Assembly (NCBI RefSeq): GCF_026130545.1
Contig: NZ_JAMOIM010000006.1
Location: 62,001 to 126,000 of the forward strand
Direction of reading: 5' to 3'
Source of the DNA: Lichenifustis flavocetrariae
Lineage (GTDB): Bacteria > Pseudomonadota > Alphaproteobacteria > Rhizobiales > Beijerinckiaceae
DNA length: 64,000 nucleotides
The translations under genes and the position numbers were made by a program. Under the pieces are notes generated by a model. It saw nothing but the letters and a program-made list of their open reading frames with translations. It did not search any database and was not told the origin of the DNA. Shown piece by piece: positions 10,265-52,714 of this stretch (within the stretch, counting starts at the first letter, position 1; each line of letters begins with the position of its first letter).

Positions 10265-10310
10265 GATGTGTTTCCCGATGTTTGGCCGAGTGTGAGGGGT
10301 CGAGCTTGCG

Positions 10311-17417: not shown

Positions 17418-17518
17418 TGCTTCCGAACCGAAGTAACCATGCGGCTACTTTGGTCAGTCAAGCTTGCGCGGGGGTTTCGCGATCGCACGGGCGCGATCGT
17501 TCGACTCCCGAGAGTGCC

Positions 17519-20232: not shown

Positions 20233-20720
20233 GGCGCGGGACCTGAGGAACGAAGCGTTGAACCGATAATGCGGGCCGGAACCCCGGCGACGATCGCGTG
20301 CGGTGGCACGTTTTGGGTCACGACAGCCCCGGCTGCGACAAGGGCGTGATGACCGACCGTAATGTCGGGCAGGATGGTGGCGTGGCTGCCGATCGAGGCG
20401 CCGCGTTCCACCAGGGTGGGAAGGCAGGTCCAGTCGGCAGCCGTTTGCAGTGTGCCGTCGGGATTGGCGGCGGCGGGAAAGCGGTCATTGGTGAACATCA
20501 CCCCATGGCCCACGAAGACCTCGTCGGCGATCGTCACGCCCGAACAGATGAAGCTGTGCGACTGGATCTTGCAGTTGCGGCCGATGACGACATCGCTCTG
20601 GATTTCGACGAACGTGCCGATCCGTGTTCCCGCGCCGATCTGGCAGCCGTAAAGATTGACGAGATCGGGGTGGTAGACGACCGCACCCGCCTCCATGACG
20701 ACGTCGGCCTTGATCGGCAT
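20229..20720 (-). CDS. Left-handed beta-helix N-acetyltransferase (WbpD/FdtC-like)
   Basis: About 163 residues from the ATG at 20720. Hexapeptide repeats (IGAGTRIG, VVIGRNCKIQ, ADEVFVG, ASIGSHATILPDITVGHHALVAAGAVVT) form a left-handed beta-helix acyltransferase. The signature VFVGHGVMFTNDRFP is shared with WbpD, WlbB and FdtC-type enzymes that acetylate 3-amino sugars on UDP or dTDP. It follows the upstream aminotransferase gene by one base (TGACATG) and overlaps the downstream one. It most likely acetylates the amino group made by one of the two neighbouring aminotransferases. Confidence 0.85.
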   Translation of the reverse strand: MPIKADVVMEAGAVVYHPDLVNLYGCQIGAGTRIGTFVEIQSDVVIGRNCKIQSHSFICSGVTIADEVFVGHGVMFTNDRFPAAANPDGTLQTAADWTCLPTLVERGASIGSHATILPDITVGHHALVAAGAVVTQNVPPHAIVAGVPARIIGSTLRSSGPAP

Positions 20721-20721
20721 G

Positions 20722-21888: not shown

Positions 21889-22907
21889 GCGGCGCTCGCG
21901 ATCGGCATGGCGGTGGCGGTCTCCTCACGCTCGGCCCGCCACCAGCGAACGAGTTCGTGCAATCCTTCGTCGAGCCCGATCGTGGTCTCAAAGCCGAGCA
22001 GCCGCTGGGCCTTCTCGGTGGACGCAAGCCGGCGCTCGACCGGATTGATGGCGCGCGGCGGGTGGTGTTCCACGGTGAGATCCGGCCGCCCCATGGTGCG
22101 CAGCAGCGCCTCGGCGAGGCCCTTCAGCGACACCTCCCGTCCGGCCGCCACATTGAAGGCGGTCGCATCCGAGGCGGGCGCGAGCGCGGCCAGCACATTG
22201 GCGCGGGCGACATCGCGCACTTCCACAAAATCCATCGTCTGCAGACCGTCGCCGAAGATCAGCGGCGGCAGCCCGGCCTCGATGCGTTCCATCCAGCGGA
22301 TCAGGACTTCCGTATACTTGCCGTGGATGTCCATGCGGGTGCCGTAGACGTTGAAATACCGCAGGGCACAGCTATTCAGCCCATACATGTCGTTGAAGGC
22401 GCGCAGCAGGCTTTCGTTCAAGAGCTTGAAGCCGCCATAGAGGGTGCGGTCGGAATAGGGGGCCGCGGCCTCGGTGGTCGGAAATTCCGGTGCGAGGCCG
22501 TAGATCGAAGCCGAGGAGGCCGCGACGACCTTCTTGATGCCGTGCGCCACGCAGGATTGCAGAAGATCGAATGTCGCGCCCGCCATCACGTCGAAGGCGT
22601 GGCGGGGCTCAGCGGCGCAATGGGTAATGCGGAGAGCCGCCTGATGGAAGACGATATCGCTCTCCGCCACAAGCCGATCGAGGAGCGCGTGATCGCGGAT
22701 GTCGCCCTCGATGAGGGTCGCACGGTCCGAACCGAGCGCTTGCGCGAGATTCGCGGGCCGGCCGCGCACCATATTGTCGAGGGCCACGATCCGGCAGTCC
22801 GCCTCCGCCAGCAGGGCATCGATGATGTGGGACCCGACGAAGCCGGCACCGCCGGTGACCAGAATGCGCTGCCCGGCGAGGGCGAAGGGCTGGGATGGTT
22901 CGGACAT
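21885..22907 (-). CDS. NAD-dependent nucleotide-sugar epimerase/dehydratase (extended SDR)
   Basis: About 340 residues from the ATG giving [14 protein letters not shown]. The Rossmann motif [12 protein letters not shown] (residues about 17-28), a catalytic-type SSASIYG segment and a later YGGFKLLNE (YxxxK) place it in the extended SDR family that includes UDP-glucose 4-epimerase and related dehydratases. ALRYFNVYG is the usual substrate-domain block. Exact sugar specificity is not readable. It starts two bases after the Gfo/Idh gene. Confidence 0.88.
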
Positions 22908-22909
22908 GT

Positions 22910-23944
22910 TCACTCCGCCGCAACGGCTCTGAGGGAGGGTTCGGTGCGGCTTCGGACGCGCCGCAGGCTGAGGTCGAGCGCGGCCTGCGCCCATTCGAGG
23001 GTGCGGACGATTCTGAGACCCTGACGCCCGTCCATGCGGGAGCGCGTCCGGCCAAGGATCACCTGCCTAAAATGTTCGACGACATCGACAAGCGGTTCGC
23101 CGGCGGGCAGGCGGGGCGACAGCACGGAGCCGATGCGGTAGCTCGGCAGGATCTGTTCACGCTTGGCCTGCGGCTGCAGGCTGATGCCGGAATCGTAGAT
23201 CTTCAACGGCTCGTCGCGGTTGAGATCGTCCCAGACCACCATCTTGGCGCTGCCCCCGACCGCGATGCGCCGCACCTTGACGGGCGACATCCAGCTCAGG
23301 TTGAGGTGCGCCACCATGGCGTTGGGGTAGTGCAGGGTGAGGTAGCCGATGTCCGGCACCATCGGGTTGACGTGGCAATAGCCGCTCGCCTCGATCTCCA
23401 CGGGTTCGGACCCGAACAGGTGGTCGATGATGGAGAGATCGTGCGGCGCAAGGTCCCACAGCACGTTCACGTCGGGTTGGAACAACCCAAGGTTGATGCG
23501 CTGCGAATCGTAATAGGAGATCTGCCCCAGCGTCCCCGTGCCCATCAATTCGTTGAGCACCCGCACAACGGGGTGAAACAGGAACGTGTGGTCGACCATC
23601 AAGGTCACGCCGGCGGCCTCCGCCTGCTCCACGAGGTCGGCCGCCTGATCGCCGGTGCGGCAGAGCGGCTTCTCCACCAGCACGTGCTTGCCGGCCGCGA
23701 TGGCCTGAGCGGCCAGCGGATAATGCGACGACACCGGCGTCGCGATGACGACCGCGTCGACCTCGGGCAAGGCGGTCGCGAGGTCGCCATAGACCTGCAA
23801 TCCTGGATGGGCGGCCCGAAGCCTGGCCTGGGTATCCGGATTCTGATCGACCACGGCCTTGAGATGCAAGTCCGCGTTATTCGACAGCACTCGGAATAGG
23901 TTCTTCCCCCAATAACCCATTCCGCACAGGGCAACTTGGATCAT
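22910..23944 (-). CDS. Gfo/Idh/MocA family sugar oxidoreductase
   Basis: About 344 residues. N-terminal Rossmann fold with VALCGMGYWGKNLFRVL, the family's EKPLC motif (GKHVLVEKPLCRTG) and, after it, the dimerisation/catalytic domain with DLAPHDLSIIDHLFG, where the histidine-aspartate pair is typical. Such enzymes oxidise a sugar hydroxyl with NAD; in this setting it would make the 3-keto sugar for amination (WbpB/WlbA logic). The ATG at 23944 is preferred; an in-frame TTG lies five codons upstream. First gene of the minus-strand sugar block, divergent from the NeuD-type gene. Confidence 0.88.
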   Translation of the reverse strand: MIQVALCGMGYWGKNLFRVLSNNADLHLKAVVDQNPDTQARLRAAHPGLQVYGDLATALPEVDAVVIATPVSSHYPLAAQAIAAGKHVLVEKPLCRTGDQAADLVEQAEAAGVTLMVDHTFLFHPVVRVLNELMGTGTLGQISYYDSQRINLGLFQPDVNVLWDLAPHDLSIIDHLFGSEPVEIEASGYCHVNPMVPDIGYLTLHYPNAMVAHLNLSWMSPVKVRRIAVGGSAKMVVWDDLNRDEPLKIYDSGISLQPQAKREQILPSYRIGSVLSPRLPAGEPLVDVVEHFRQVILGRTRSRMDGRQGLRIVRTLEWAQAALDLSLRRVRSRTEPSLRAVAAE

Positions 23945-37552: not shown

Positions 37553-37969
37553 TTACGCCGTGCTAAAGGTGAAATATTTGTGCCCGGCATAGCTCGTAAC
37601 GATCGGGCTTAGCACGCCGATGATATGGGCTGTCGTCTCCACGTGCCACGTATCGTGAAGGGCGGGGAGCAGCCAATCGGCCAGCACGATGCTGACGATC
37701 CAGACCTGGACGAGAGCCGCGAGGTTGATGAGGCAGAAGCGCAACGTCTCGGCATGCGCGGCCCGTCCCGATGTTTCGAAGACGAGAACCTTCATGGACA
37801 GATAGGCGGTCATCATGCCGACCAGATAGGCCAGCACGATCGACACCTGGTAGCTCAGGACCTGCGAGAACAGGATACGGGCCATGATGTTGCAGGCCGC
37901 CGCGAAGCCGCCGCAGAGGGCGAATCGGAGAAACTGCGAAGGAATGAGGGCAATGGCGCGGTCTCTCAT
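37553..37969 (-). CDS. GtrA-family four-helix membrane protein (possible polyprenyl-P-sugar flippase)
   Basis: A 138-residue product with four transmembrane segments (about 14-33, 40-60, 78-97, 110-132) and the family's FALCGGFAAACNIMARIL and SPIVTSYAGHKYFTF. GtrA proteins help move undecaprenyl-phosphate sugars across the membrane. In mycobacteria the GtrA protein Rv3789 lies directly beside dprE1 and dprE2 and has been proposed to flip decaprenyl-phospho-arabinose; the same genes occur here, so that role is inferred. Last gene of the six-gene operon; four-base overlap upstream. Confidence 0.85.
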   Translation of the reverse strand: MRDRAIALIPSQFLRFALCGGFAAACNIMARILFSQVLSYQVSIVLAYLVGMMTAYLSMKVLVFETSGRAAHAETLRFCLINLAALVQVWIVSIVLADWLLPALHDTWHVETTAHIIGVLSPIVTSYAGHKYFTFSTA

Positions 37970-39249
37970 ACCGGGATCGCCTCAGCCATCATGCGGCCGT
38001 AGCGGATGCTTTCCGACACGCCGCGGTCTTCGGGATAGTAATAGCAGGTGTCGGCGATCTGCAGCCCGGCGATCGGGGTCTGGATCGGCGGGAGCTTGTC
38101 GCGAAAGTTCGGCTCGCACACCGGCTGGGCGTAGCGCAGACGCCCCACGGTCGAGTCGATCAGGTCGTCGGGTTTGATGTCGGGGGCGATCCGCCGGATG
38201 TAGCCGAAGGCCTCCTCGACGAAGCTGGCGTCGTCCCAGCTCCATTTCGGGTTCGTGGTCGGCATGTAATAGGGCACGTAGATCACCGTGTCCTTGACAG
38301 GCCGCAGGTTGGAAAATTCGATCAGGCCCGGGATCTCGATCGTGGGGTCGACGATATTGAGCCAGAAATTCTTGGAGACTGAGCGCTTCAGCTTGAGCAG
38401 CAGGCACACGACGCCGATGTTGCGGATCGCCGCATAGCGGGCTTTCCAATCCTCCGGCATGTCGGGCACGAGCTTGGCGATGAGCGGGGTCGGCACCGTC
38501 GAGATCACCGCATCGGCGGGGTAGGTCTGGCCTCCGGCCTCGACGCCGCTCACGCGGCCGTCGGCAGTCTTGACGAGCGTCGCCGGCGCACCGAGATGCA
38601 GCCGCCCCCCCTTTGCCTCGAAAGCTCGAACCAGCGCGTCCACCAGGGTCTGCGTGCCGCCCTCGATGTAGCCGAGTTCCTCCTGGAAGATCGATTTTCG
38701 CGAATTGCCGATCCGCTTGACCCGGGTTGCGATCCAGGACGCCGAGATGTCGTCGGCCAGCTCATAGAACTTCAAATGGAAGAGACGCTTCCACAGCGTC
38801 TCGTAGACCTCCCGTCCCGATCCGCCTTCGAGCCATTGCCGGGCGGTCAGGTGCTCGATGCCGTCGAAGGTGCGGCGCTTGGTCGTGTAGAACATCTGCA
38901 GACCGGTGCGGATCTTCGCCCAAAGGCTAAGATGCGGGAAGGTGAGCAGCGAGATCGGATCGCCCCACGGCCTGATCTTGCCGCCGATATAATAGCCCAT
39001 CTTGGTCGGGCGCCATTTCATGGCCTCGGCGAGACCGAGTTCCTTCATCAGCGCGAAGGTCGGTGCGTCGGATTTGCAGACGAAATGGTAGAAGCGCTCG
39101 ATCGAAAGCCCGCCGAAGTCGAGGTGGGCCGCCATGCCCCCCGCTACGCTATCGGCTTCGATGAGGTCGACCGAATGGCCGAGGGTCACGGCGCGATGGG
39201 CTGCGGCGAGACCCATGGGGCCTGCACCGATGATCACAAGACGAGCCAT
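37966..39249 (-). CDS. FAD-dependent oxidoreductase (amine oxidase/UGM-like fold)
   Basis: The 427-residue product begins with an FAD-binding Rossmann motif (LVIIGAGPMGLAAAHRA) and continues with the SIERFYHFVCKSDAPTFALMKELGL block and a C-terminal nucleotide-binding line (IADTCYYYPEDRGVSESIRYGRMMAEAI). This fold includes UDP-galactopyranose mutase-like and protoporphyrinogen/amine oxidase-like enzymes; the exact reaction is not clear. Gene order suggests a step on a lipid-linked or nucleotide sugar. It overlaps gtrA by four bases and follows the epimerase by four. Confidence 0.8.
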   Translation of the reverse strand: MARLVIIGAGPMGLAAAHRAVTLGHSVDLIEADSVAGGMAAHLDFGGLSIERFYHFVCKSDAPTFALMKELGLAEAMKWRPTKMGYYIGGKIRPWGDPISLLTFPHLSLWAKIRTGLQMFYTTKRRTFDGIEHLTARQWLEGGSGREVYETLWKRLFHLKFYELADDISASWIATRVKRIGNSRKSIFQEELGYIEGGTQTLVDALVRAFEAKGGRLHLGAPATLVKTADGRVSGVEAGGQTYPADAVISTVPTPLIAKLVPDMPEDWKARYAAIRNIGVVCLLLKLKRSVSKNFWLNIVDPTIEIPGLIEFSNLRPVKDTVIYVPYYMPTTNPKWSWDDASFVEEAFGYIRRIAPDIKPDDLIDSTVGRLRYAQPVCEPNFRDKLPPIQTPIAGLQIADTCYYYPEDRGVSESIRYGRMMAEAIPV

Positions 39250-39253
39250 GGTC

Positions 39254-40186
39254 TCAGAAATCCAAAGTGATGGGGGCGTAGCGCGGATCGAGGTAGGTTT
39301 CCTCCAACGCGGCCTTCAGAGGCGTCGCGGTCACGCCGAAGCGGGCAGGCCAATCGATGACCGGGAAGGTTTCAGGAATGATCAGCGCTTCAAGTTGCTT
39401 GGTCGTGAAGGGAGGATTCTTGTCGACCAGCGCGTAAACCGTGAGCAACAGCCAGAACAGGCGATAGGGAATGTAGACGATCCTGGCCTTGGGTTTCACG
39501 ATGTCGTGGATGAGCTGGATCAGCGCCCCATAGTCGATCTGCTCGCGACCCGAGATATCGAACGTGCCGGTGGGTTTTGATTCCAGGCAGGAGGCGATGA
39601 TGCTGGCGAAATCGCCCACATAGAGCGGCTGCCGGATGAAGCGCCCGTTGCCGGGGATCGGGAAGACCGGTGCCTTCTCCATGAAACGACGGAGCCATCC
39701 CAGATGCTTGCGGTCGAACCATCCAAACATCAAGGTCGGGCGCAACGCCACATGCGGGATTTCCACCGTGTCGATGAAGCGCTCCTGCGCGGTCTTGCTC
39801 TGCGTGTAGAAGTCGTTGGCTTTGGAATTCACGACCGACGACGAGATATGCACGAAATACGGCACATTGTGCTGGCGCATGGCGTCAACGATGCGCTCGG
39901 TCGCCCGTACGTTATTGTCGATGAATTCCTTTTCGACGAGACCGCCGATCTGCGCCTGGTTCAGCACCACGGCATCGGCGCCCGCGAAGGCATCCGCCCA
40001 GTCGCCCGGCTGCGCCAGATCCGCCTGGATGATCTCCAGGTCGGGATGCATGCGCTTGAGCAGCGGCGTGTTGGTCGGATGCTTGTCGATGCCGATCAGG
40101 CGCATGTCGCTGCGAGGCGCGAGGCGCGCGAACAGGTTTTGGCCGACCAGTCCGGCCGCGCCCGTGATGACGATCTTTCGGGTCAT
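39254..40186 (-). CDS. Extended SDR (NAD-dependent epimerase/dehydratase-like)
   Basis: About 310 residues from the ATG at 40186, overlapping the DprE2-like stop. ITGAAGLVGQNLF gives the cofactor site and FVHISSSVVNSKANDFYTQSKTAQERFIDT the SxnYxxxK catalytic set. It could act on a nucleotide sugar or on a lipid-linked keto intermediate in the same pathway. There is no equivalent in the mycobacterial dprE locus, so its role here is open. Confidence 0.8.
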   Translation of the reverse strand: MTRKIVITGAAGLVGQNLFARLAPRSDMRLIGIDKHPTNTPLLKRMHPDLEIIQADLAQPGDWADAFAGADAVVLNQAQIGGLVEKEFIDNNVRATERIVDAMRQHNVPYFVHISSSVVNSKANDFYTQSKTAQERFIDTVEIPHVALRPTLMFGWFDRKHLGWLRRFMEKAPVFPIPGNGRFIRQPLYVGDFASIIASCLESKPTGTFDISGREQIDYGALIQLIHDIVKPKARIVYIPYRLFWLLLTVYALVDKNPPFTTKQLEALIIPETFPVIDWPARFGVTATPLKAALEETYLDPRYAPITLDF

Positions 40187-40920
40187 ATGTTCATACGGTT
40201 GAAGATGAAGGTGGGCAGGTGGCGGATGATCAACATGATGAAGCGCCAGTGCCAGGGAGCGTAGAGCACCGGGCCGCCCCGGTCGGCCGCGCGTCGAACC
40301 ACGGCGGCCACCTGTTCGGGGGTCGCCCACAAAGCTCCCTTGCGGTTGAAACTCTCTGTCATCGGCGTGATCGTCGGACCGGGTTTCACCACGACGACAC
40401 GCGGTCCCTGACCGGCGAAGCGGTGCGCGAGCCCTTCGACAAGCGTGGCGAGGCCGGCCTTGGCGGCGCCATAGATGAAATTCGCGCGCCTGCCGCGATC
40501 GCCGGCGACCGATCCGATCACCACGAGCGAGCCACGGCCGAGCTTCTCGAGCGCGCCCGCCGCGGCCAGGGTCCAGGCGGCGGCCGAGTTGAAGTTGATG
40601 CGCAGGATCTCTTCGGCCTGGGCCGGATCCCGTTCGGCCGGCCCCTGATCGCCCAGGATGCCGTAGGCGAGGATGATGTGATCGACGCCGCCGATCTGCG
40701 CCACGAAACGTGCAAAATCCGCCTCGATGCCATGCGGATCGGCAAGATCGCGAACCGCGACCTCGGCCTTGGCGGCGCCGCGGATCAGAAGATCGTCCCG
40801 GATGGCGAGCAACCGATCCTCCCGCCGCGCCACGAGCAGCAGGTCGGCGCCTTCTTTGGCGTAAAGCCGGGCCGTGGCTTCGGCAATCGCCGAGGTCGCG
40901 CCGAGGATGATAACCCGCAA
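40183..40920 (-). CDS. dprE2: DprE2-like keto-reductase (polyprenyl-P-ribose to arabinose epimerisation)
   Basis: Classical SDR of about 245 residues. The TTG at 40920 is seven bases after AGGAGG and gives MRVIILGATSAIAEATARLY, the normal N-terminus for this family; a GTG at 40926 is too close to the Shine-Dalgarno. The catalytic set is VIGSVAGDRG and FIYGAAKAGLATLVEG. A C-terminal basic-hydrophobic segment (WRFIMLIIRHLPTFIFNR) fits membrane association, as in DprE2. With DprE1 it would convert polyprenyl-phospho-ribose to the arabinose epimer via a 2-keto intermediate. Confidence 0.85.
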   Translation of the reverse strand: MRVIILGATSAIAEATARLYAKEGADLLLVARREDRLLAIRDDLLIRGAAKAEVAVRDLADPHGIEADFARFVAQIGGVDHIILAYGILGDQGPAERDPAQAEEILRINFNSAAAWTLAAAGALEKLGRGSLVVIGSVAGDRGRRANFIYGAAKAGLATLVEGLAHRFAGQGPRVVVVKPGPTITPMTESFNRKGALWATPEQVAAVVRRAADRGGPVLYAPWHWRFIMLIIRHLPTFIFNRMNI

Positions 40921-40931
40921 AACCACTCCTC

Positions 40932-42269
40932 CTATGCGGCAGCCTGCATGCGGCGCCAAAACCGCGACGAGAATTGAGGATCGACGTGGTGCTCAAACGC
41001 ACCGAGAGCCGGATAGCCGGACCGGAACAGATCCGGCGGCAGGCGCCCATCCTTGGCCGGGTAGAGCCTGCCGCCCGCTTCTCGCACGATGGCGTCGAGC
41101 CGATCAAGCAGGGAGAGCGTGTCGGACCCGCGATTGGGAAAATCGAGCGCCAGTGTCGTGCCCTCCCGTGGGAAGGACAAAAGGCCCGGAGAGACGCGAT
41201 CGCCGAAGGTCTTCAACACGGCCAGAAAAGAACCCTGACCGGCCGCCGCGATGGTTTGGAGCATGGCGCGGGTCGCCTCGCGCGCCGCTGACGGCGGCAC
41301 GACCGACTGGTATTGGTACATGCCGCGCCGCCCATAGATGCGGTTCCAGTGCCGCAATGCGTCGAGCGGATAGAAGAACGACAGGGCGGGGACGACCGCC
41401 TTGCCGGCCTTCATGCGCGAGCGCCAGTTGTAGAGCGTGTTGAATGCCCGGACCGAAAGTCCGTTCAGCGCCAGTTCGGGAAATTCGAAGGGCACCGCCG
41501 GCCCGGTCTTGTCGGCGAGCAGGCGCGTGCCGGTCGGTGCATGCCGGCCGCGTGAGAAGATGCCACGGCCGAGGCTCGCGCCAGTGGCCAGGCAATCCAC
41601 CCAGGCCACGGTGTAATCGAAGCCCGCCTCGCTCTCGGCCGCGATGGCGAAGAAGCCATCGAGATCGTCGAACGGGACGGTTTCGGTGTCCATCAAGGCG
41701 CTGCCGGCCGGGATGACCTCAAATTCCACCCAGGTGATGATGCCAGTGAGGCCGAGCCCACCCACCGTGGCGGCGAAAAGACCGGTCGGGTCGTCGGGTG
41801 TCAGTTCCCATTCTACACCGTCCGAGCGCAGCAAGCCGAGCCGGCGCACCCAGCACCCGAAGGTGCCCGCGCCGTGATGGTTCTTTCCGTGGACATCGTT
41901 TGCCACCGCGCCGCCGAGGGTGACGAAGCGGGTTCCCGGTGTCACAGGAAGAAAATGGCCCGACCGCAGCAGGATCGGCAGCAGCGCGTCGAAGGTCATG
42001 CCGGCCTCGGCCCGCATTGTCCGGCGGGCCGGATCGAAGGCGATGCCGCGGTCGAGACCCGTCATGTCGATGACGGTCTGGCCGCCATTGAGGCCACTGT
42101 CGCCGTAGGAGCGCCTGGCCCCGATGGCAAGACAGGAGCGGCCCGCTGCGGTGTCTTCCCGAAGCAAGCCCGGCAGATCCTCGCGCCAAAGGGGACGCGC
42201 CACGTCCTGGGTTTCGCGAATGACGCGACCCCAGGACAGCACGCCCTCGGTCGGAGCGAAGCGGGTCAC
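40932..42269 (-). CDS. dprE1: DprE1-like FAD oxidase (polyprenyl-P-ribose 2'-oxidase)
   Basis: The 445-residue product matches mycobacterial DprE1 in order and motif: ARRSYGDSGLNGGQTVIDMT (51-70), PVTPGTRFVTLGGAVANDVHGKNHH (108-132, FAD-binding), MYQYQSVVP (318-325), and RLYPAKDGR (401-409) with the catalytic-type lysine K406. In M. tuberculosis the benzothiazinone target C387 lies in NICVDFP; here the same place reads TLALDFP, with alanine at about residue 374. Overlaps the UbiA gene by four bases. Confidence 0.92.
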   Translation of the reverse strand: MTRFAPTEGVLSWGRVIRETQDVARPLWREDLPGLLREDTAAGRSCLAIGARRSYGDSGLNGGQTVIDMTGLDRGIAFDPARRTMRAEAGMTFDALLPILLRSGHFLPVTPGTRFVTLGGAVANDVHGKNHHGAGTFGCWVRRLGLLRSDGVEWELTPDDPTGLFAATVGGLGLTGIITWVEFEVIPAGSALMDTETVPFDDLDGFFAIAAESEAGFDYTVAWVDCLATGASLGRGIFSRGRHAPTGTRLLADKTGPAVPFEFPELALNGLSVRAFNTLYNWRSRMKAGKAVVPALSFFYPLDALRHWNRIYGRRGMYQYQSVVPPSAAREATRAMLQTIAAAGQGSFLAVLKTFGDRVSPGLLSFPREGTTLALDFPNRGSDTLSLLDRLDAIVREAGGRLYPAKDGRLPPDLFRSGYPALGAFEHHVDPQFSSRFWRRMQAAA

Positions 42270-43738
42270 AGAGCCAGGAAAAAGAAAACGGCCGTCGCGG
42301 CGCCGATCAGGAGACTGGATTTGTCGCGCAGGGCGAAGCTGACCGGATCATCGTTCATCTGTCCTCTATGGGCCAAGAGCCAGATGCGGCCCACCCAAAT
42401 CGACAGAATAACCGGGATCCCCCACAACATCTTCGGGTGATGATAAACGACCCCGCGCTGGGCTTCCTGGGCGATGAACAGGACCATGATGACAAGGGAG
42501 GCGACCGAGCTCGCGACACCCAAGGCGAGTGTCAGGGGCTCATCCTCGACACGATACCCGCGCCGCTCGAGACTGTGGGACACTTTGGAGCCGGCCCGGA
42601 TGATCTCCGTGTGGCGCTTCGCTATGGCGAGCGACACGAAGAAAAACACCGAAAAGGTCAGCAGCCACTCGGCGAGGGGTTGGCCGAGGAGCGCGATGCC
42701 CATCACGAGCCGAGTGGTGAACAGGATGCCGATCACCAGCGTATCGAGCAGCGGAATGCGTTTGAGGCCGAACGAATAGGCCAGGGTCAGCGCCAGATAC
42801 GAGGCCAGCGCCAGGGCAAAGGCATGCGACAGCAGCAAGGCCCCGATAAAGGCCAGGACGAGCGCACAGCCCGCCATGGTAAACCCGGCTCTGATCGACA
42901 TGAGCCCGCTCGCCAGCGCACGGTGCTTTTTCGACCAGTGCCGCCGATCCGCCTCCAGATCGGCGATATCGTTCATGAGATAGGTGGCGGAGGTCACCAT
43001 CAGGAGACAGCAGAGGCCGAGCAGCACATGCAGGATGGCCGACGGATCGGTCCAGCCATGGCTGAGAATGAGAGGCACGAAGATGAGCGCGTTCTTCGAC
43101 CAGTGATGAACCCGCAAGGCCTTGAGGAGGGGCCGGATGCCGAGGGGCTTCGAGCGGAACTCGGCTTCGATCGGCTTGCCGAGGCGCCGCGCCTCGCTGG
43201 CGACGCCCGGCGCCACACCGGCCAGCACGATGCCGCGCGCCTTGGCCCACACGGCGAGGTCCGCTGCGCTATCGCCCGCGTAGACAAAACCATCCGGGAA
43301 GGTGCGGTCCAGATAGTCCGCCTTGGCGGCTCCCTTCAGGTTGATCACATCAGAGCCAACCGCGGAGTGAAACAGACCGAGCCGCCGCTCGATCGCCTCG
43401 ACGATGGTGCGATTGGCGGCCGAGCAGAGGTGAATCTCACGCCCCTTTGTGGCCTCGTCGCGCAACCATTGCACCAGATCCTCACGTAGCGGAAGGTGTT
43501 CCGCCGAGAAGGCGATGCGGGACGACAGCCCCGCCTTGAACGCCGCGCGTCCCTGCTGCAGCAGGGGAACGGCTCGGGCCAGCCCCGAAGGATTGGTGAA
43601 AAGACCCACGGCGAGATGCTCGTAGAGCGAGTCGGTCAGGATCAATGTGTGATCGAGATCCACGATGAGCGGGTAGATCCGAGAGTCCGGTGACAACACA
43701 GACTGGCTTACCTTTTCGTTGCTCTCAAGTGGCTGCAT
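42266..43738 (-). CDS. HAD phosphatase fused to UbiA prenyltransferase (DPPR synthase-like)
   Basis: The 490-residue product has two parts. Residues about 20-185 are a HAD domain: nucleophile DLDHT (27-31), Lys region and GDSAADLAVW (about 155-164). Residues about 200-490 are a UbiA membrane domain with the prenyl-PP motif NDIADLEAD (256-264) and YSFGLKRIPLLD (321-332). Rv3806c, the mycobacterial 5-phosphoribosyl-1-pyrophosphate:decaprenyl-phosphate transferase, is the same UbiA type and needs a later phosphatase; the HAD half could supply it. The Azorhizobium arabinosylation gene noeC is also of this class. First gene of the operon. Confidence 0.88.
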   Translation of the reverse strand: MQPLESNEKVSQSVLSPDSRIYPLIVDLDHTLILTDSLYEHLAVGLFTNPSGLARAVPLLQQGRAAFKAGLSSRIAFSAEHLPLREDLVQWLRDEATKGREIHLCSAANRTIVEAIERRLGLFHSAVGSDVINLKGAAKADYLDRTFPDGFVYAGDSAADLAVWAKARGIVLAGVAPGVASEARRLGKPIEAEFRSKPLGIRPLLKALRVHHWSKNALIFVPLILSHGWTDPSAILHVLLGLCCLLMVTSATYLMNDIADLEADRRHWSKKHRALASGLMSIRAGFTMAGCALVLAFIGALLLSHAFALALASYLALTLAYSFGLKRIPLLDTLVIGILFTTRLVMGIALLGQPLAEWLLTFSVFFFVSLAIAKRHTEIIRAGSKVSHSLERRGYRVEDEPLTLALGVASSVASLVIMVLFIAQEAQRGVVYHHPKMLWGIPVILSIWVGRIWLLAHRGQMNDDPVSFALRDKSSLLIGAATAVFFFLAL

Positions 43739-44219
43739 ATAAAGCCAGATCCGCCAAGTCTCAAAGCGCAAAAATATCGCACAAATCTGCGCGTGCGCAG
43801 AACAGTGTACTATCGTGTTTTGCCATAAAAATAGGCCCGCTGTCAAAACCTCAACCGACTGACGTGGACACCTTCTTGCGAGACAGATTTCGGAAGCGCA
43901 AACGACAGCTCGGCCGATTGCATTGAACCGCCACGCCGATTTACCTTGCTGGGCTGGTCTGCCCGGCGCGTGTCACTTCCCCGTCACCCTCTGATGTTGT
44001 GCCGATTCGCTGACAGCAGAGTCGGTTGCGTCACCCCGATCGCTGTGGCAAGTCTCGTAACGGAATGAGAGATCGGATGATCCACGTCGAAGACCAAGAA
44101 ATGTCGTGTCTCACCGATCTCTTGAGTCGCCAAGCAGCCATATTGTCTCTGTGCCGCACCAATCTCTGGGATAAACCCCGTACGTGGCCTCACCTTCGGG
44201 TCTCTCGCAGAGAGCAGGC
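43739..44219. other. Divergent promoter region between the UbiA operon and the GT-C gene
   Basis: 481 bases with no supported gene; short open frames on both strands lack family-like sequence. The part next to UbiA is AT-richer than the neighbours and contains the inverted repeat at 43786-43801. It should hold the promoters of both transcription units. Confidence 0.55.
43786..43801. promoter_or_regulatory. Perfect inverted repeat ahead of the arabinose-type operon
   Basis: TCTGCGC-GT-GCGCAGA lies 48-63 bases upstream of the UbiA start, in the divergent gap to the GT-C gene. It is a plausible operator or a chance GC palindrome; nothing else in this gap looks like a site. Confidence 0.4.
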
Positions 44220-45905
44220 ATGACGCCGATACCGTCACGCGTAAGCGGCCGATTGTCTGCGACCCTTACAGAATGGGTTCTTCCCCTCATCGTCTTGGGC
44301 CTCGTGTTCGCGGTCACCGTCGGGATCGTCGGTCCGTTCGGAAATTTCCCGCTGAATGACGACTGGTCGTTTGGCAGCACGACGCAGCGCCTATTCGCGA
44401 CCGGCATCTGGGCTCCGACCAGCTACCCCAGCATGCCTTTGATCACCAACGCGCTTTGGGCGCTGCCGGTGTGCAGTGTCACGGCCTGCAGCTTCGATGA
44501 TCTCCGCATCGCCACGCTTCTGGCGGCCGTGCTGCTGTTCGTCGCAACCTTCGTGCTGATCCGGTCGCGGGGCTCGGTGGCAGTGGCGATCGTCGCAGCC
44601 GCGACGATGATCTTCAATCCTATCGGTTACACACTCTCGTTCACCTTCATGACCGACGTCCTGTTCTGGGCGCTGGTCACCATCAGCGCGATCGTGTTCA
44701 TCGCGTCGCTCGAACGAGACTCGGTCTTGCTGGCCGTCGTGGGCACCCTGGTGTCCATTGCTGCTACCCTATCCCGCCAACTCGCGTTGGCGGTGCCCTT
44801 GGCCTTCGGTCTTGTCTGCCTGTTGCAGGCGGGACCATGGCGGCGCAAGAGCCTCGTCGCGGTCGTCCCGGTCCTCGTTTGCGGCGCCGTGCTGGTGGGC
44901 TTCGATCACTGGCTCGTGGCGACCGGCAAGGTTCCGGCGCAGCTGACGGCTCAGTCCGAAGGTATCCTGCAATCCTTTCGGATGCCGGGCCTGCTGGCGA
45001 AACGTGTCGCCGAGAATATGGCCACGGCCTATCTCTATATGGGACTGTTCAGCCTGCCGGTATTGCTGCTGACGCGCCGTCCCGATTTCGAGCCGCCGAA
45101 CGTCTGGCTCCGCCGCGCGCCGCGTCTCCTCGCCTGCGCGGCCGTCGTCCTGACGGTGGCGATCATGGTGGCAGCGCATCGCATCATGCCCTTCGGCAAG
45201 AACATCCTGGTGCCCGAGGGGGTGGGGCCCCTCACGTTGCGCGACGCCTTCGTGCTCGGCCTGCCGAACGTCCCGCGTCTGCCCGCGGCGTGGTGGATGG
45301 CCGTCACGTTGCTCGGCCTCGTGGGAACCTACGCTCTGGTGGATCGCCTGTCGCTCTTCCTCGTCGCGACCGCCCTCCGCTTCCCGAGGGAGCGCCTGAG
45401 GCCGGACGACGCGAGCCCTCTCTTCGCCGTGCTGGCCGTGCTGGCCTACACGACGCCCCTGCTGGCGCTTTCCGCCTACGACCGCTATTTCGTGGCCTTT
45501 CTGCCCTTGGCGTTCTTCGTTATCGTGGCGACCGCGAGTCCGGCGCCCGTGATGCGCTTCCGTTTTGGTGCCGCCGCCGCGATCCTTCTCGCGCTTACAG
45601 TGTTTTCCGTCCTGGCCCTGCACGATTATTTCGCCTGGAATCGCACCCGTTGGACGGCAATCGCAGACCTGCAGGCCGCCCATGAGGCCTCGCCAGAGAC
45701 GTTGGACGGCGGCATCGAATATAACGGACTCTTCTCCTACGACCCCTCCTACACGCCGACTCCGAACAAGAGTTTTTGGTGGGTAAAGAATGATGACTAC
45801 ATGATCACCTTCGGCCCGGTCGCGGGGATGACGGTGCTGAAGCAATATCCCTATCGGGCCTACCTGCCGCCGTTCGAGCGATCGATTTTTGTCCTTCATC
45901 ATTGA
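44220..45905 (+). CDS. GT-C fold membrane glycosyltransferase
   Basis: The 561-residue product has about ten to twelve transmembrane segments. The first periplasmic loop carries the GT-C acidic motif FPLNDDW (D47, D48), and the C-terminal part after about residue 480 is soluble and periplasmic. GT-C enzymes use polyprenyl-phospho-sugars as donors on the outer face, e.g. ArnT and mycobacterial arabinosyltransferases. Next to a probable polyprenyl-phospho-arabinose operon it is a candidate user of that donor, but sequence alone does not show this. ATG at 44220 preceded by AGAGAGCAGG. Confidence 0.75.
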   Translation: MTPIPSRVSGRLSATLTEWVLPLIVLGLVFAVTVGIVGPFGNFPLNDDWSFGSTTQRLFATGIWAPTSYPSMPLITNALWALPVCSVTACSFDDLRIATLLAAVLLFVATFVLIRSRGSVAVAIVAAATMIFNPIGYTLSFTFMTDVLFWALVTISAIVFIASLERDSVLLAVVGTLVSIAATLSRQLALAVPLAFGLVCLLQAGPWRRKSLVAVVPVLVCGAVLVGFDHWLVATGKVPAQLTAQSEGILQSFRMPGLLAKRVAENMATAYLYMGLFSLPVLLLTRRPDFEPPNVWLRRAPRLLACAAVVLTVAIMVAAHRIMPFGKNILVPEGVGPLTLRDAFVLGLPNVPRLPAAWWMAVTLLGLVGTYALVDRLSLFLVATALRFPRERLRPDDASPLFAVLAVLAYTTPLLALSAYDRYFVAFLPLAFFVIVATASPAPVMRFRFGAAAAILLALTVFSVLALHDYFAWNRTRWTAIADLQAAHEASPETLDGGIEYNGLFSYDPSYTPTPNKSFWWVKNDDYMITFGPVAGMTVLKQYPYRAYLPPFERSIFVLHH

Positions 45906-47221: not shown

Positions 47222-47864
47222 CTCATCTTAGCTCGACTTTGCGCATTTTGCCGGTGTCGCTGGTCCGCCCTGGCGGCCGCCCGCATCCCGTTCCTGATGC
47301 TGGTCGGTTGGTTCGCGGCTTCGGGACCTGTGGTGATCGGCCTTGAAGACACCATTGAGCATTGGGCGTCGATGGGTTGCCAAGATCAAGGCCCGTGGCA
47401 TCTACCGGGACCCCGTAAGGTCGAGCCACGGGCACTTTTTCAAGGCCAGCGGATTGCGCTGGCTGTCGGCCATGCTGCTGGCGCCGGTTTCCTAGACCGG
47501 TCGTATCTGGGCGCTCTCTTTCCTCACCGCGCCGATGGCGTCGGTACGCAGGGTCAGGCATAAGACGCTGGTCGACGGCGCCCGCCAGATCATGCTGCAG
47601 ATCGCCCGCTGGCTTCCGGGCCGCCCCATCGTGATCGTGGCGGACAGCATCTTCTCGGCCATCGATCTGCTGGCCGCTGTGTGGAACCGCGTCAGCGTCG
47701 TCACGCGGCTCAGGTTCGATGCTCGCCTGTTCGCGCCCGCGGAACCGCGCGAGGCCGGCGCGATCAGGCGACCACGGCGCAATGCCGAGCGGCTTCCGAC
47801 ATTGGCCCAGCGCCCCCTCGAGCCGCGGATAACGCTCATCGTCCACGATCCACATTACCGATGA
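47222..47864 (+). mobile_element. Decayed DDE transposase (IS701/IS4-like) remnant
   Basis: Conceptual translation across frames reads LVGWFAASGPVVIGLEDTIEHW, then (frame +1) RRWVAKIKARGIYRDPVRSS-HGHFFKASGLRWLSAMLLAPVS, an in-frame TAG where the family has Trp, then GRIWAL-FLTAPMASVRRVRHKTLVDGARQIMLQIARWLPGRPIVIVADSIFSAIDLLAAV. The GLxDTI and ADSIFS blocks hold DDE-type aspartates. So it has at least one frameshift (near 47368) and one stop (near 47494), and both ends are missing. No inverted repeats or target duplication could be identified. Confidence 0.8.
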
Positions 47865-49170
47865 AAGTATCAGGTAGCGTCAGGGATATTTGCGACGTCC
47901 CATTTCCCGGCGGAAGCCGTATTTCAGAAGGCGGGATAGTGGCCGGCCATATTTCGACCACACAGGCTCGAACACTTGAGCACTGATGTACCTGTTCCGC
48001 CCAGGACGGCCCGGTGAGGAATCGCTGCGGCCAGCTCGACAACAGGCGTTGTCCCACCCCATTTGCTGCAATGATAACAAGCAGCAGCGTGGAGAATGCT
48101 CTGATCGCTACATGATTAGACGTCGAAAGAAGCAAGAGCGAAATGACAAGACAGCTCGCCCCGAAAAAGAAGTATCGACTACCGACTAAAGGCGCTGTTT
48201 CCAATACGGAAGCACCAGGGATTGATCCAACAACGTTCAGCGCGGTCACCAGGACCCACAAGCCAACAACGTAAAATATTTGTGACCTCAACCTTGATTC
48301 GACGTGTTGCCTCCAGGCAAATAAAATCAATGTGCTAAATAAAAGGCAAATCAATATCGAGAAATAATGCATTCCGACCCAAGTAGTTACAAGACTGGTT
48401 GCCTTAACGCCAACTATAGGCTGAAAAATGGTGCCAGCGATGATGGACTGGACGATCGCCAAACTATGCAGGTCATACGACCTGTTGGAAAACTCGGTTG
48501 TTAGGATAGCTAGTAGCTGCACACAAGTCGATAGCGCGAGCAATCCCCCCAAAGAGGCAAAGACAACCGATCGACTCAAAATGCCTTTCGCTATAAATCC
48601 CGGTGCAAGCATACACGACGGGACGCCGGTCAATCCGCACAACAATGTCCATGCACAAGCGATACCGAAACGACGCCTAACTATATCTTCATTGAGAAGA
48701 AGAACCATTAAAACGCTAAGCGAGCATAACCACTGTATATTTGTCGATGTTAGCCAGACTTCGTAACTTTCGGGCAGAAAGAACCAGCCAGCCAAAAAAA
48801 AGAGCGCGAATCCGGGAGCATTAGCTACACCCATCGCCCAGTATGCGAGCTGCATGAACAAAACACCACTGACTATAAACGCCGCGTAAGTGGTCACGTA
48901 TGGCATCAGATCAACATACGACCTGATGGCGAACCAGCATGCTATTGCATTGATAAGTTGTACAGACCCACGATAATTATAGGTGAGCGCCTGAAGGAAG
49001 CTCTTTGAAGCCATGTCAGGCATGAATACGGACCCCTCTTCAGCCCATAACCGCCCATGCAGCATAACTTCAGGCATTTTGGTAAAGGAAAGAATGATGA
49101 AGAGCGCGGTCATCAGCATCCATCGTCTGCTGCTTTGGCTAGTGAATGCCACATAGATGCTGTCGAACAT
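47836..49170 (-). CDS. Multispanning membrane protein, function unknown
   Basis: The 444-residue product has about ten to eleven hydrophobic segments and a short cytoplasmic or periplasmic tail. The first loop contains MLHGRLWAEEGSVFMP, an acidic, Trp-containing loop reminiscent of GT-C-type proteins, though I cannot confirm a family. GGAGACGT precedes the ATG. DNA is clearly AT-richer than around it, suggesting transfer. Its 3' end runs into the transposase remnant, so the last residues may derive from it. Confidence 0.7.
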   Translation of the reverse strand: MFDSIYVAFTSQSSRRWMLMTALFIILSFTKMPEVMLHGRLWAEEGSVFMPDMASKSFLQALTYNYRGSVQLINAIACWFAIRSYVDLMPYVTTYAAFIVSGVLFMQLAYWAMGVANAPGFALFFLAGWFFLPESYEVWLTSTNIQWLCSLSVLMVLLLNEDIVRRRFGIACAWTLLCGLTGVPSCMLAPGFIAKGILSRSVVFASLGGLLALSTCVQLLAILTTEFSNRSYDLHSLAIVQSIIAGTIFQPIVGVKATSLVTTWVGMHYFSILICLLFSTLILFAWRQHVESRLRSQIFYVVGLWVLVTALNVVGSIPGASVLETAPLVGSRYFFFGASCLVISLLLLSTSNHVAIRAFSTLLLVIIAANGVGQRLLSSWPQRFLTGPSWAEQVHQCSSVRACVVEIWPATIPPSEIRLPPGNGTSQISLTLPDTFIGNVDRGR

Positions 49171-49357
49171 ACGTCTCCATTCCAGATTATCGCCTACCCG
49201 TGCACAAAGCCGCGACTAAGCGTCAATACGCGATTTGCTGGCCACTTACAAACTGTTGCGCTCTGGTTCCTGCTCGGCTGCAAAACGTCAAGAGGGTCGT
49301 AGGCATCGTCTCCTTTTTCAGACGCTGCCTACGGCCGACGAATTTCCTAAACTTTTC

Positions 49358-50854
49358 TTAATTCGAGTAGGCTCCGATGTCGACAGGGACTTTCCTTGTT
49401 TTTCCAGTGATATCGGTCGTTGGTGCCTTGGCTGGAGAGCCTGCCCCGATGCCTGCGCTGCCGCCTTTCAGCCTCAGGTCATAAGCGCCATTTGCATTGT
49501 CCAGTTTGACAAAGAGCGATGATGGAGTAGGGACAAGAGTAGTCTGTGTGGATGGTTGGCCGGACTTTACCAGCGCCACGGTTATGCTACCCTCCTTGCC
49601 GATGAGCTTCGATGTGAATATATTGTGGTCATAGCTTACCCCGGGTTCAGCAACGGCCAGCACTGGAGCAATATTATTTCTAACAAGTATATTGGACGGC
49701 AGTGACCCATCTTTTCCATGTGAAATCCACAGCAAGGCCTGCGTTGAGCCGCTTGAAACAACAGTATTATTGATTACCGAGCTGTTTTTTGCACCAAATA
49801 CAGCAATTCCATTATTCGTATCTGTCACAACAACATTATTCTGGACAATGAGGTTATCCCACTTCCCGTCGAAGATCGAGATGCCTTGCAGGTAGCTGTC
49901 TGGGTCATTCAATTTGATGATCTTGTTGTCTTCGATTCGAACGTTCGAGTTCGTTGTATAAGCGCCATTCACAAGGTTCGACCAGCCCTGAATAGCATCA
50001 GCATGATATCCGTTTAGCTTGTTGATATTTCCATTCGTAAATGTATTGCCACGAACCGTTATATTGCTATATGTTATGTCGATACCGTCAGTCTGGAAAT
50101 AATCGACAACGTTGTTGGCGAAAAAATTACTGTCCTTTCCCATCATGGCGCCATTAAATACGTTATAAATCTTGCTGTTGGTCAAGCTAACGCACGAAAC
50201 TCTTGAGGAAAACGTGGTGAAGTAGGGCTTCAATATCCAGTCTGCATCCGACCAGCCTCTAGTATCGTCAGTTGTAGAAAACGTGTCATTGGAAAACACA
50301 ACATTATTCGAAATGCCCGTGTAATCACCGTCTCCAACCGTCACTTGTCCGTCCAAAGGTTTCTTCTTGACGTCGGTATTGGTGCTCGGGCTCCCTCCCT
50401 GGAATTTTATGCCCTGAAAGACAAACTTGGCAGAACTCACGATGTTCATTTGGCGAATGACGGGGGTTTGGCCCGGTCCGGCCATGACCCAAACGAAATC
50501 TGTATTGAAGGAGTTCAGAATCTTGAGTGTGCCGTAGTTTCCACTCATGAGGATGACAACATCACCTGCTTTAATCGGACCTGATGGGTTCACGTCTCCG
50601 TACGATTGGTTCTTATTCGACCACGCTTTTGCCGACAGAAGCTTGTTGCTCATTCCGATGACGGCCGTTAGGTTTTTCCAGGGCTTTGCCGCCGACCCAT
50701 CACCTTGGTCCGAACCTTTTACAGGGTCGACGTAGAAATTGCGGTGACTTGGTTTAATGCTCGGCACTGGGCACCCAGGATAGACTTCAATCGCTTGGGC
50801 AATGGCAGGACAAACCGCCATGAACATACCTGCTGCCAGGACTCTTTTCAACAA
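49358..50854 (-). CDS. Secreted right-handed parallel beta-helix protein
   Basis: A 498-residue exported protein. The start is a TTG (50854 or the adjacent 50851), since CGGAGG lies five to eight bases upstream and the basic N-terminus KRVLAAGMFMAVCPAIAQA is needed for the signal peptide. The mature part has FYVDPVKGSDQGDGSAAKPWKNL at the N-terminus and many N-rich turns (NNVVFSNDTFS, NNVVDYFQTDGIDITYSNITVRGNTF, NNGIAVFGAKNSSVINNTVV), typical of parallel beta-helix repeats as in pectate lyases and polysaccharide epimerases. It ends DIGAYSN. Polysaccharide binding or cleavage is the probable role. In the AT-rich island. Confidence 0.82.
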   Translation of the reverse strand: MLKRVLAAGMFMAVCPAIAQAIEVYPGCPVPSIKPSHRNFYVDPVKGSDQGDGSAAKPWKNLTAVIGMSNKLLSAKAWSNKNQSYGDVNPSGPIKAGDVVILMSGNYGTLKILNSFNTDFVWVMAGPGQTPVIRQMNIVSSAKFVFQGIKFQGGSPSTNTDVKKKPLDGQVTVGDGDYTGISNNVVFSNDTFSTTDDTRGWSDADWILKPYFTTFSSRVSCVSLTNSKIYNVFNGAMMGKDSNFFANNVVDYFQTDGIDITYSNITVRGNTFTNGNINKLNGYHADAIQGWSNLVNGAYTTNSNVRIEDNKIIKLNDPDSYLQGISIFDGKWDNLIVQNNVVVTDTNNGIAVFGAKNSSVINNTVVSSGSTQALLWISHGKDGSLPSNILVRNNIAPVLAVAEPGVSYDHNIFTSKLIGKEGSITVALVKSGQPSTQTTLVPTPSSLFVKLDNANGAYDLRLKGGSAGIGAGSPAKAPTTDITGKTRKVPVDIGAYSN

Positions 50855-51157
50855 CGCAACCTCCGCATGTTAGATGCCGTGTTATAGAACGTAGTTCTGT
50901 CGGCCTCCCTAACGGAATTACGACGTGTTGTAACAATGCTTCAGATATTGAGGCCTTCTGTCCCAGGAACCGCTTTTGAAGCCGGGAGGCACCCCTAGCG
51001 TACCTCGTGCATAGGTTAACGGCATGTGTCCAGTCGAGACGCATTCCTAAGCCAATTGGACCCACGTTCGGAATGGTCAAACCTGACAACACTCCCCTCG
51101 GTAGATATCTTCGCGGTTCAGACGAGGTGCAGTTGCAGGCGAATCCATTAAGTCCAA
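50855..51157. other. Gene-free spacer in the AT-rich island
   Basis: 303 bases between the beta-helix and Wzy-like genes, both read leftward. It contains the beta-helix Shine-Dalgarno and probable promoter; no convincing open frame or terminator. Confidence 0.5.
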
Positions 51158-52714
51158 TCAGGGCGCTCCTGTTCGGTAATTCACTTGCTCTGGTGCAGTG
51201 TTTCCGGACGTTGTAACCCGCTGCAGCGCGAAGACAAGCCCGATTAAGATCAATAGTAGCGTATTGTTTTCGGTTTGAGACGTTGTGGTTCGATCGACCG
51301 CATACGCAATCAACGCACACCCAATGGCTGCGCCGGTTGCAGCAAGCGGTGATTTATTGGTTATATAGATACGGAAGCTGATCCAGACTGCAACGGCGAT
51401 CATGCCGAAGAACAGCCCGAACCCAAGCACCCCGTTGTCTAGAAGGAGATTAATCCGGTAGTCGTCCATTGTTGCTTGGCCGCGGCCACCTGTGACGAAT
51501 TCACCTGCTACGCTCGCTGTACCAAACCCGTGGCCCCACAATGGGCTCTGAAAGATTTTTGGCCATGCAGTCGCCCACTGCTGTACCCTGCCCTGGTCGC
51601 TAAGCTGGGTTGTGCCATTCCCGAAAACCATCACATGAAATTTGTTTACAAATGTGACTGCAGCTGCGACGATGGTTACGGTACCGGAAGTTAGAAATAG
51701 CGCAATGCCACCAGATAGACTTTCCGGATGTAAACGGATCTTTCGGATTGCCCAAATAATCAAGAAAACGCTTAGAGCCACCATCGAACAGACGTAACCT
51801 CCTCGTGATCCTGAGTAGGTCAGCGACAGAAAACCGGCAATAAAGCTGACCAGTCCCAGGAGACGGTGTCGCCCGGAGTCTCCATGAATCAAGAAATAGG
51901 CGGCCACAGGCGCTACCATCGCCACCATCTCAGCCCATGACAGCCCAATGCTATATGCCGCGGTCGCGCGATAGATGCCGTCGCGGAATGAACCCGTTTC
52001 CGCGCCTGCATACATAGGAGTGTTTTCAATTATGTAGGCACGACTGGACGCCGGAAGGAGCTGAAACATAAACGGCTTCTGGACGTGAAATTCGATGCCG
52101 CCGAGCACGAAATCGATGATCATACAAAAAAGCATGACCTTGAGCAGCCCAACGATGTTAGCACCTTTCTCGACGAAAATTATAACGGCGAGGAATGGCA
52201 GATACCAAGTCATTGTATACTGAACGAGAACGTTTATGGTTGAGCTGGGAGCGACAGAAACGGGAAACGTCGCCACGATTAGTGCGTAATAACCTGCAGT
52301 CATATAGAAAAGTAGAGGTGCTGCCTTTAAGCGGTTAATCAACAGCGTTCTATATTTAGATGAACCGCAGATGGTTATGACAAGTGCGCCAACGAAGATG
52401 TAGAGGAAGAAACGCCGAACCGAAATGAAAGGTACACCCGGAATTATGATTGCGAGATAGAATGGAGTACAGACAGTAGCTACGAGGAAAGGGACAAACG
52501 AGCGGCGTGCCAGGCGACTAGGAACAGACCGTAGATCTGGCAGAGTCCAGAGCAGGATGAGGCCTGCCAAACCGACAATCCCAAACGGTACGCCGGCGGG
52601 GAACAGCACGCAACCGACGCCGACCACAAGACCGATGAACGCCAGGCTCCCCGCGATCAACGTCTTGCGGGCGGCCCAGCCCGTTGTTGCGAGAACGGAC
52701 GACAGCATGCTCAT
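51158..52714 (-). CDS. O-antigen polymerase/ligase family protein (Wzy/WaaL-like)
   Basis: A 518-residue product with about twelve transmembrane segments and the Wzy_C-type arrangement: a large periplasmic loop around residues 200-250, then FIAGFLSLTYSGSRGGYVCSM with the arginine found in polymerases and ligases, and a later WGHGFGTA. ATG preceded by GAGAGG. It may join or polymerise repeat units, possibly of the polymer touched by the beta-helix protein. Polymerase versus ligase cannot be told from sequence alone. Confidence 0.82.
   Translation of the reverse strand: MSMLSSVLATTGWAARKTLIAGSLAFIGLVVGVGCVLFPAGVPFGIVGLAGLILLWTLPDLRSVPSRLARRSFVPFLVATVCTPFYLAIIIPGVPFISVRRFFLYIFVGALVITICGSSKYRTLLINRLKAAPLLFYMTAGYYALIVATFPVSVAPSSTINVLVQYTMTWYLPFLAVIIFVEKGANIVGLLKVMLFCMIIDFVLGGIEFHVQKPFMFQLLPASSRAYIIENTPMYAGAETGSFRDGIYRATAAYSIGLSWAEMVAMVAPVAAYFLIHGDSGRHRLLGLVSFIAGFLSLTYSGSRGGYVCSMVALSVFLIIWAIRKIRLHPESLSGGIALFLTSGTVTIVAAAVTFVNKFHVMVFGNGTTQLSDQGRVQQWATAWPKIFQSPLWGHGFGTASVAGEFVTGGRGQATMDDYRINLLLDNGVLGFGLFFGMIAVAVWISFRIYITNKSPLAATGAAIGCALIAYAVDRTTTSQTENNTLLLILIGLVFALQRVTTSGNTAPEQVNYRTGAP

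Follow-up and report, generated by a model that had tools for sequence, protein, structure and literature searches.

Introduction

The closest described relatives of the six-gene operon analyzed here, which lies in a 64,000-nucleotide stretch of the Lichenifustis flavocetrariae genome (hereafter, the window; C147:62001-126000 of a 7.5 Mb genome), make lipid-linked pentofuranoses. In the mycobacterial decaprenyl-phosphate-arabinose pathway (Rv3806c, DprE1, DprE2, and Rv3789), a UbiA-type phosphoribosyltransferase (DPPRS) acts with DprE1, DprE2, and a small membrane protein that is a flippase candidate; its phosphatase is separate, non-HAD, and termed unrelated to the HAD-UbiA type (PMC11127046). 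In the three-component pentofuranose systems of Citrobacter youngae, an HAD-UbiA fusion, ORF15, both activities of which were demonstrated biochemically, leads to polyprenyl-phosphate-ribofuranose, a short-chain dehydrogenase/reductase (SDR) can alter the sugar before export, and a GT-C glycosyltransferase of family GT136 adds the sugar outside the cytoplasm (Kelly et al., 2024; PMC11127046). The SDR ORF13 is a ribofuranose-to-xylofuranose epimerase, and DprE1/DprE2 homologues for arabinofuranose (Araf) in Gram-negative glycans have already been reported (PMC11127046). The rhizobial noe operon (noeC-N-H-O-P), whose acceptor is the Nod factor (PMC5080398, PMC2443382), likewise combines UbiA, GtrA, DprE1-like, and DprE2-like genes, as in the locus L142 analyzed here.

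The operon of the window encodes an HAD-UbiA fusion, a DprE1-like oxidase, a DprE2-like reductase, an extended SDR (eSDR), an FAD oxidoreductase (FADox), and a GtrA-family membrane protein. It thus shares the HAD-UbiA fusion and the DprE1/DprE2 homologues with the C. youngae type, but has GtrA in place of the MATE flippase and DprE1/DprE2 plus eSDR and FADox in place of either one SDR (ORF13) or DprE1/DprE2 (PMC11127046). Neither eSDR nor FADox is among the genes listed for the noe operon (PMC5080398, PMC2443382). As the DprE1/DprE2 route to Araf in Gram-negatives is already known, the new part is the extension by eSDR and FADox. With a probability of roughly 0.6, we interpret the operon as a cassette that supplies a polyprenyl-phosphate pentose as sugar donor, in which FADox and eSDR convert lipid-linked D-arabinofuranose to a different pentose. 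Our literature search found no publication on the six-gene form, but preprints and supplements were outside this search, which therefore does not show that the form is unpublished.

Organization of the six-gene operon

The six intact genes occupy positions 37553-43738 of the minus strand in one tight operon, in the order and with the spacing that the initial annotation had given. HAD-UbiA (490 aa; 42266-43738) starts with ATG (possibly, in a longer form, with TTG at 43846) and is followed by the DprE1-like FAD oxidase (445 aa; 40932-42269; GTG) with a 4-base overlap. After a 5-base gap, the DprE2-like SDR (247 aa; 40183-40926) was assigned a GTG start, with a longer TTG start possible at 40959. 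The remaining genes start with ATG: eSDR (310 aa; 39254-40186) after a 4-base overlap, FADox (427 aa; 37966-39249; PRK07233 family) after a 4-base gap, and the GtrA-family small membrane protein (138 aa; 37553-37969) after a 4-base overlap. Hidden Markov model searches placed every product in a Pfam family above its own cut-off, namely UbiA and HAD, FAD_binding_4, adh_short, Epimerase, Amino_oxidase, and GtrA_DPMS_TM. Promoter scanning stayed at chance level (one found versus 1.2 expected), and the terminator scan (eight found versus 4.8 expected; standard deviation, 2.4) was not used as evidence.

Predicted synthesis of lipid-linked arabinofuranose

HAD-UbiA scored 548 bits against NCBIfam PRK08238 (cut-off, 351) and comprises an N-terminal HAD domain (PF12710) and a UbiA domain (PF01040), the best PDB match of the UbiA half being mycobacterial DPPRS (8j8j; 6.9e-23). 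The HAD DxD motif was highly conserved (D27 in 67 of 69 homologues and D29 in all 69), and N256, D257, D260, and D264 of loop II and R375 and E378 of loop IV were kept in 69/69; residue counts here and below refer to matches of at least 60 bits in loci L019-L111 with at least 80% query coverage and without stops or ambiguous residues. The corresponding N, D, D, and D of loop II and R and E of loop IV have been studied in C. youngae ORF15 (PMC11127046). The protein accordingly has the features of the ORF15 type, that is, an HAD domain with a nucleophilic Asp fused to UbiA with the loop residues present, and we predict it to be a polyprenyl-phosphate 5-phosphoribosyltransferase with an N-terminal phosphoribose phosphatase (PPPRS-PRP type).

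The DprE1-like protein matched DprE1 structures in the PDB at 1.6e-71, the next family being xylitol oxidase (9.8e-8). H127 and K406, aligned in HGKNHH and AKD, were present in 75/75 homologues and correspond to the active-site residues H132 and K418 of mycobacterial DprE1. In contrast to the mycobacterial enzyme, which has Cys at the aligned position (387), the window and 71 of the 75 homologues have Ala (Ala374). For the DprE2-like protein, the best PDB match was DprE2 (4e-29; next match, 2.5e-21), and the YxxxK motif (Y152/K156) occurred in all 74 homologues. Membership of the DprE1-like and DprE2-like proteins in unrelated families was ruled out, since their closest solved structures are DprE1 and DprE2. 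The family assignments of the initial annotation were thereby upheld by structure matches and active-site residues. Its description of the pathway as mycobacterial-style needs correction; the pathway is not specifically mycobacterial, because HAD-UbiA carries the 5'-phosphatase as an HAD domain in the same polypeptide, the arrangement of C. youngae ORF15.

Judging from these sequence features, HAD-UbiA and the DprE1-like and DprE2-like proteins very probably form an arabinofuranose route. HAD-UbiA would join phosphoribosyl pyrophosphate and polyprenyl phosphate, and its HAD domain would then take off the 5'-phosphate to give lipid-linked ribofuranose. The DprE1-like enzyme (C2 oxidation) and the DprE2-like enzyme (2-ketoreductase) would invert C2 via a 2-keto intermediate, yielding lipid-linked D-arabinofuranose, an intermediate that we infer with good support because of homology and conserved active-site residues.

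Structural features of the extension enzymes

The structure model of eSDR showed the fold of a sugar epimerase/dehydratase-type SDR in alignments among the top 1000 Foldseek matches, and we predict a sugar epimerase/reductase acting on a lipid-linked pentose. FADox, with a score of 502.9 bits against NCBIfam PRK07233 (cut-off, 252) and an AlphaFold model of pLDDT 94.9, belongs to the superfamily of phytoene desaturase, PPO, amine oxidase, and UDP-galactopyranose mutase (likewise among the top 1000 Foldseek matches), and is predicted to be a flavoenzyme acting on a lipid-linked sugar. Its invariant residues include E51, R52, Y54, H55, C58, and Y404-R409. Membership in PRK07233 (NF005560), named "hypothetical protein" in NCBIfam, is given by score, and its link to lipid-linked sugar systems here is by context only. 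Distant FADox relatives without eSDR adjoined GT2 glycosyltransferases in L149 and L150, the latter also adjoining an LPG_synthase_TM protein, and a deacetylase-GT2 fusion in L151; a protein with 7 to 10 hydrophobic segments was encoded near each of them. A further FADox relative (31%) was located in an unannotated stretch of an Embleya plasmid. The FADox family had no match in Corynebacterium glutamicum, a single related control genome and the extent of this search, mycobacteria not being included.

We consider it fairly likely that FADox and eSDR act on the sugar. As a second flavin/nicotinamide pair, they would carry out an oxidation and a stereo- or ring-changing reduction, giving a different pentose.

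Co-occurrence and distribution of the extension

To survey named organisms, 84,980 named genomes were scanned with a six-row eSDR alignment, yielding at least 586 pattern matches and at least 514 relatives at E 1e-3 or better, of which the best 80 were kept. The full six-gene set was found in 63 of these 80 loci, in 39 of them in the order and strand of the window and in 11 with the positions of the [UbiA-DprE1-DprE2] and [eSDR-FADox-GtrA] halves exchanged. The window order extended to 40 loci when a distant second SDR in L102 was disregarded, and in 30 of the 40 every inter-match gap was below 250 bases; intervening genes are possible in the six-gene loci. Only one of the 17 incomplete loci (L083) had the complete 10 kb on either side of eSDR. 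Given all six genes in 63/80 loci, a chance neighbourhood was rejected, as was a pathway unique to this host.

Eleven loci lacked DprE1 beside eSDR. Profile searches located DprE1 elsewhere in the assembly in nine of these 11 genomes and HAD-UbiA elsewhere in 10; four of the 11 were Acidobacteria, with both genes present outside the eSDR loci. L045 and L069 already had DprE1 beside eSDR and so were outside this group.

We also examined a sample of 249 genomes of the order, our own included, which is less biased than the eSDR-drawn loci; 7 to 9 of the first-look candidates were scored per genome, so that absences are not absolute. DprE1 was found in 36 genomes, eSDR in nine, and FADox in 13. 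All nine genomes with eSDR had DprE1, and the same nine held the close FADox (at least 724 bits). With our own genome excluded, the hypergeometric probability of all eight eSDR genomes falling inside the 35 DprE1 genomes was 7e-8 by genome and 2.6e-4 by genus, relatedness being removed only in part. The set was split in one genome (G632), where DprE1-DprE2-eSDR and UbiA-GtrA-FADox lay about 34 kb apart.

Broader samples gave a similar picture. In the phylum sample seeded on UbiA (299 genomes), 43 other genomes matched; 33 loci had DprE1 and five had eSDR, all five within the 33, and in G483 eSDR-FADox-GtrA was on a separate contig. When FADox was the seed, in a phylum sample of 249 genomes, the family occurred in six others, comprising four full sets, G483 cut at a contig end, and L140 with a relative standing alone. 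Among plasmids, eSDR was found in seven records, FADox in the same seven plus one distant, and DprE1 in 63 including those seven. A class-wide search found eSDR in one of 288 other genomes at 1e-40, indicating that it is sparse under even sampling, and the viral contigs contained 14 pattern matches and no eSDR relative. The genome, phylum, and plasmid samples therefore indicate that only a minority of DprE1 cassettes carry the eSDR and FADox pair, as an optional addition. The two enzymes which the initial annotation had singled out as additional are indeed a conserved extension.

In a plasmid of Burkholderia stagnalis (L125:1-14703), the full block lay downstream of isonitrile synthase genes, a gene for a sugar-nucleotide-binding domain, and a methyltransferase gene on the same strand, a hint of a glycosylated natural product. 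In two other loci (L230:11544-13184 and L231:9475-10440), a more distant SDR, 24-25% identical and scoring 73 bits with the eSDR profile, adjoined DprE2-DprE1 where the locus contained no match to FADox; it is perhaps another sugar-changing add-on.

Alternative functions of the operon

Several observations weigh against a conversion of lipid-linked Araf by FADox and eSDR. The named survey was drawn via eSDR and favours complete clusters, and the genome searches, those of the order sample among them, have the limit on absences given above. The DprE1 profile had no match in two of the 11 genomes without DprE1 beside eSDR (G347 and G353, both metagenome assemblies). Four of the 13 FADox genomes of the order had the distant copy only (241-343 bits) and were without eSDR, L140 encodes a 32% FADox relative (511 bits to PRK07233) adjoined by none of the other five genes, and family members above cut-off also occur in Haloferax volcanii and Methanosarcina acetivorans, which shows that FADox is not tied to arabinose systems. 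The eSDR profile picks up complex I 39-kDa subunits as well, and these are non-sugar enzymes. Neither extension enzyme is characterized, and fold alone cannot separate epimerase, mutase, oxidase, and dehydratase. Moreover, no single GT-C was conserved throughout the loci.

Because FADox shares its fold with isoprenoid desaturases, a lipid substrate is possible. The final sugar could be plain D-arabinofuranose, with eSDR and FADox acting elsewhere, for example on the carrier isoprenoid or the acceptor glycan. We regard this as unlikely, since eSDR has the fold of a sugar epimerase/dehydratase and always accompanied DprE1 in the order sample (9/9), and since distant FADox relatives adjoin sugar-transfer enzymes. 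The superfamily of FADox also allows a UDP-galactopyranose-mutase-like ring-size changer acting on the polyprenyl-phosphate sugar, from arabinofuranose to arabinopyranose here and from pyranose to furanose in GT2 contexts, with eSDR epimerizing independently. This seems improbable; desaturase and PPO outscored UDP-galactopyranose mutase, which was not among the 60 listed of 89 profile matches, and in DprE1 systems FADox is strictly paired with eSDR, which points to a coupled redox step. Arabinose would never be formed if the DprE1/DprE2-like pair worked on a different lipid-linked sugar or at a different position. This is very improbable. Both proteins did fall below the curated NCBIfam cut-offs, with DprE1 as the best hit of the former at 346.3 bits (equivalog cut-off, 500) and, for the latter, PRK07102 best at 248 bits (cut-off, 267) and DprE2 second at 174.7 bits (cut-off, 250); these low scores also count against the Araf-converting cassette, and we therefore use the labels "DprE1-like" and "DprE2-like". 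Nevertheless, DprE1 and DprE2 are by far the closest solved structures, the active-site residues are kept, and the DprE1-like protein has a 41% match (1e-69) in its noe counterpart, which is linked to Nod-factor D-arabinosylation (PMC5080398).

Returning to the conversion of lipid-linked Araf to a different pentose, one specific form would have FADox and eSDR act as a second FAD/SDR epimerase pair, with inversion at C3 turning polyprenyl-phosphate-D-arabinofuranose into polyprenyl-phosphate-D-lyxofuranose. This outcome, together with the wider proposal that PRK07233 enzymes are a family of flavoenzymes remodelling sugars on a carrier lipid, is doubtful. According to PMC11127046, no solved structure contains lyxofuranose, which would require inversion at both C2 and C3. 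On the basis of the gene content, we infer arabinose or a modified pentose in the host.

Putative export and transfer of the sugar

The GtrA protein (PF04138; 1.5e-14, above cut-off) has three hydrophobic segments and is a putative flippase that would move the donor to the periplasm. No MATE protein was found among the neighbouring ORFs scanned, which were part of the window ORFs. In the Agrobacterium pusense IRBG74 plasmid (L142), a gene annotated as GtrA family (4567-4989), identified as noeN by gene order only, lies between UbiA (noeC) and DprE1-like (noeH), and a hypothetical protein occupies the noeP place. This gene content, together with PMC2443382 and PMC5080398, bears out the kinship of the operon with noe. 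noeN has been proposed as the missing phosphatase (PMC5080398); its partial phenotype would also be in keeping with a flippase.

Locus-variable membrane transferases of GT-C type would place the sugar on a surface glycan. Two weak candidates are encoded in the window: a divergent membrane protein of 573 aa (44184-45905, plus strand) with 12 hydrophobic segments and a PMT_2 match below cut-off (E 0.003), for which no homologue was found in 100 other loci searched, and a protein of 444 aa (47836-49170, minus strand) with eight hydrophobic segments and no Pfam match, which had relatives in three of the 100 (L048, L075, and L139). In L139, the relative is located inside the operon, between eSDR and FADox; L136, L137, and L139 each have a membrane protein inside the operon (7, 10, and 8 hydrophobic segments, respectively). 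A multi-transmembrane protein of at least 380 aa was found inside the block or within 5 kb in 56 of the 63 six-gene loci, a figure without a control rate. In a search of 94 sequences (93 loci and the window), 16 loci had an ORF with the DQ[WLFY]...HNEH-like motif, which was absent from the window. Pfam scans of 10 flanking or candidate membrane proteins gave no family above cut-off. Such variable transferases across loci fit one donor serving many acceptors.

Elsewhere in the window, positions 48001-52000 have a G+C content of 0.49-0.50 (0.57-0.67 elsewhere) and span a membrane protein, an ORF that matched no Pfam family, and one end (the terminal part) of a Wzy_C O-antigen ligase gene; this is perhaps a recently acquired glycan segment. 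At positions 7486-22994, flagellar genes (FlgE, FlgK, FliF, FliK, and MotB families) precede genes for two DegT aminotransferases and a sugar epimerase, a possible sugar set for a flagellin glycan.

Evolutionary history

In a DprE1 tree of 101 rows, built by a quick method from matches covering at least 75% and mostly drawn via eSDR, the window clustered with G054, Phreatobacter, Phyllobacterium, and Rhizobiaceae, apart from its congeners. From this position, the six-gene block of the host was probably acquired horizontally. The presence of eSDR on the tree required nine changes (at least six forced), compared with an average of 18.6 in shuffles, none of 500 being as low; with rows mostly chosen via eSDR, these figures are no more than a hint of repeated gain or loss. 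A contig labelled Streptomyces sp. AcH 505 (L047) also carries the six-gene block, and its DprE1 groups with Rhodopseudomonas; it is probably contamination of that assembly.

Significance

The known lipid-linked D-arabinofuranose route carries a widespread two-enzyme extension, from Rhizobiales to Acidobacteria, which probably turns arabinose into a different sugar in many other bacteria; our literature search found no publication on its product. The cassette gives a handle on the role of the PRK07233 flavoenzymes, and the archaeal contexts of FADox could reveal whether archaeal lipid-linked sugars use this family. The combination of eSDR and FADox with DprE1/DprE2 is a gene marker for organisms whose surface glycans may hold an unusual pentose.

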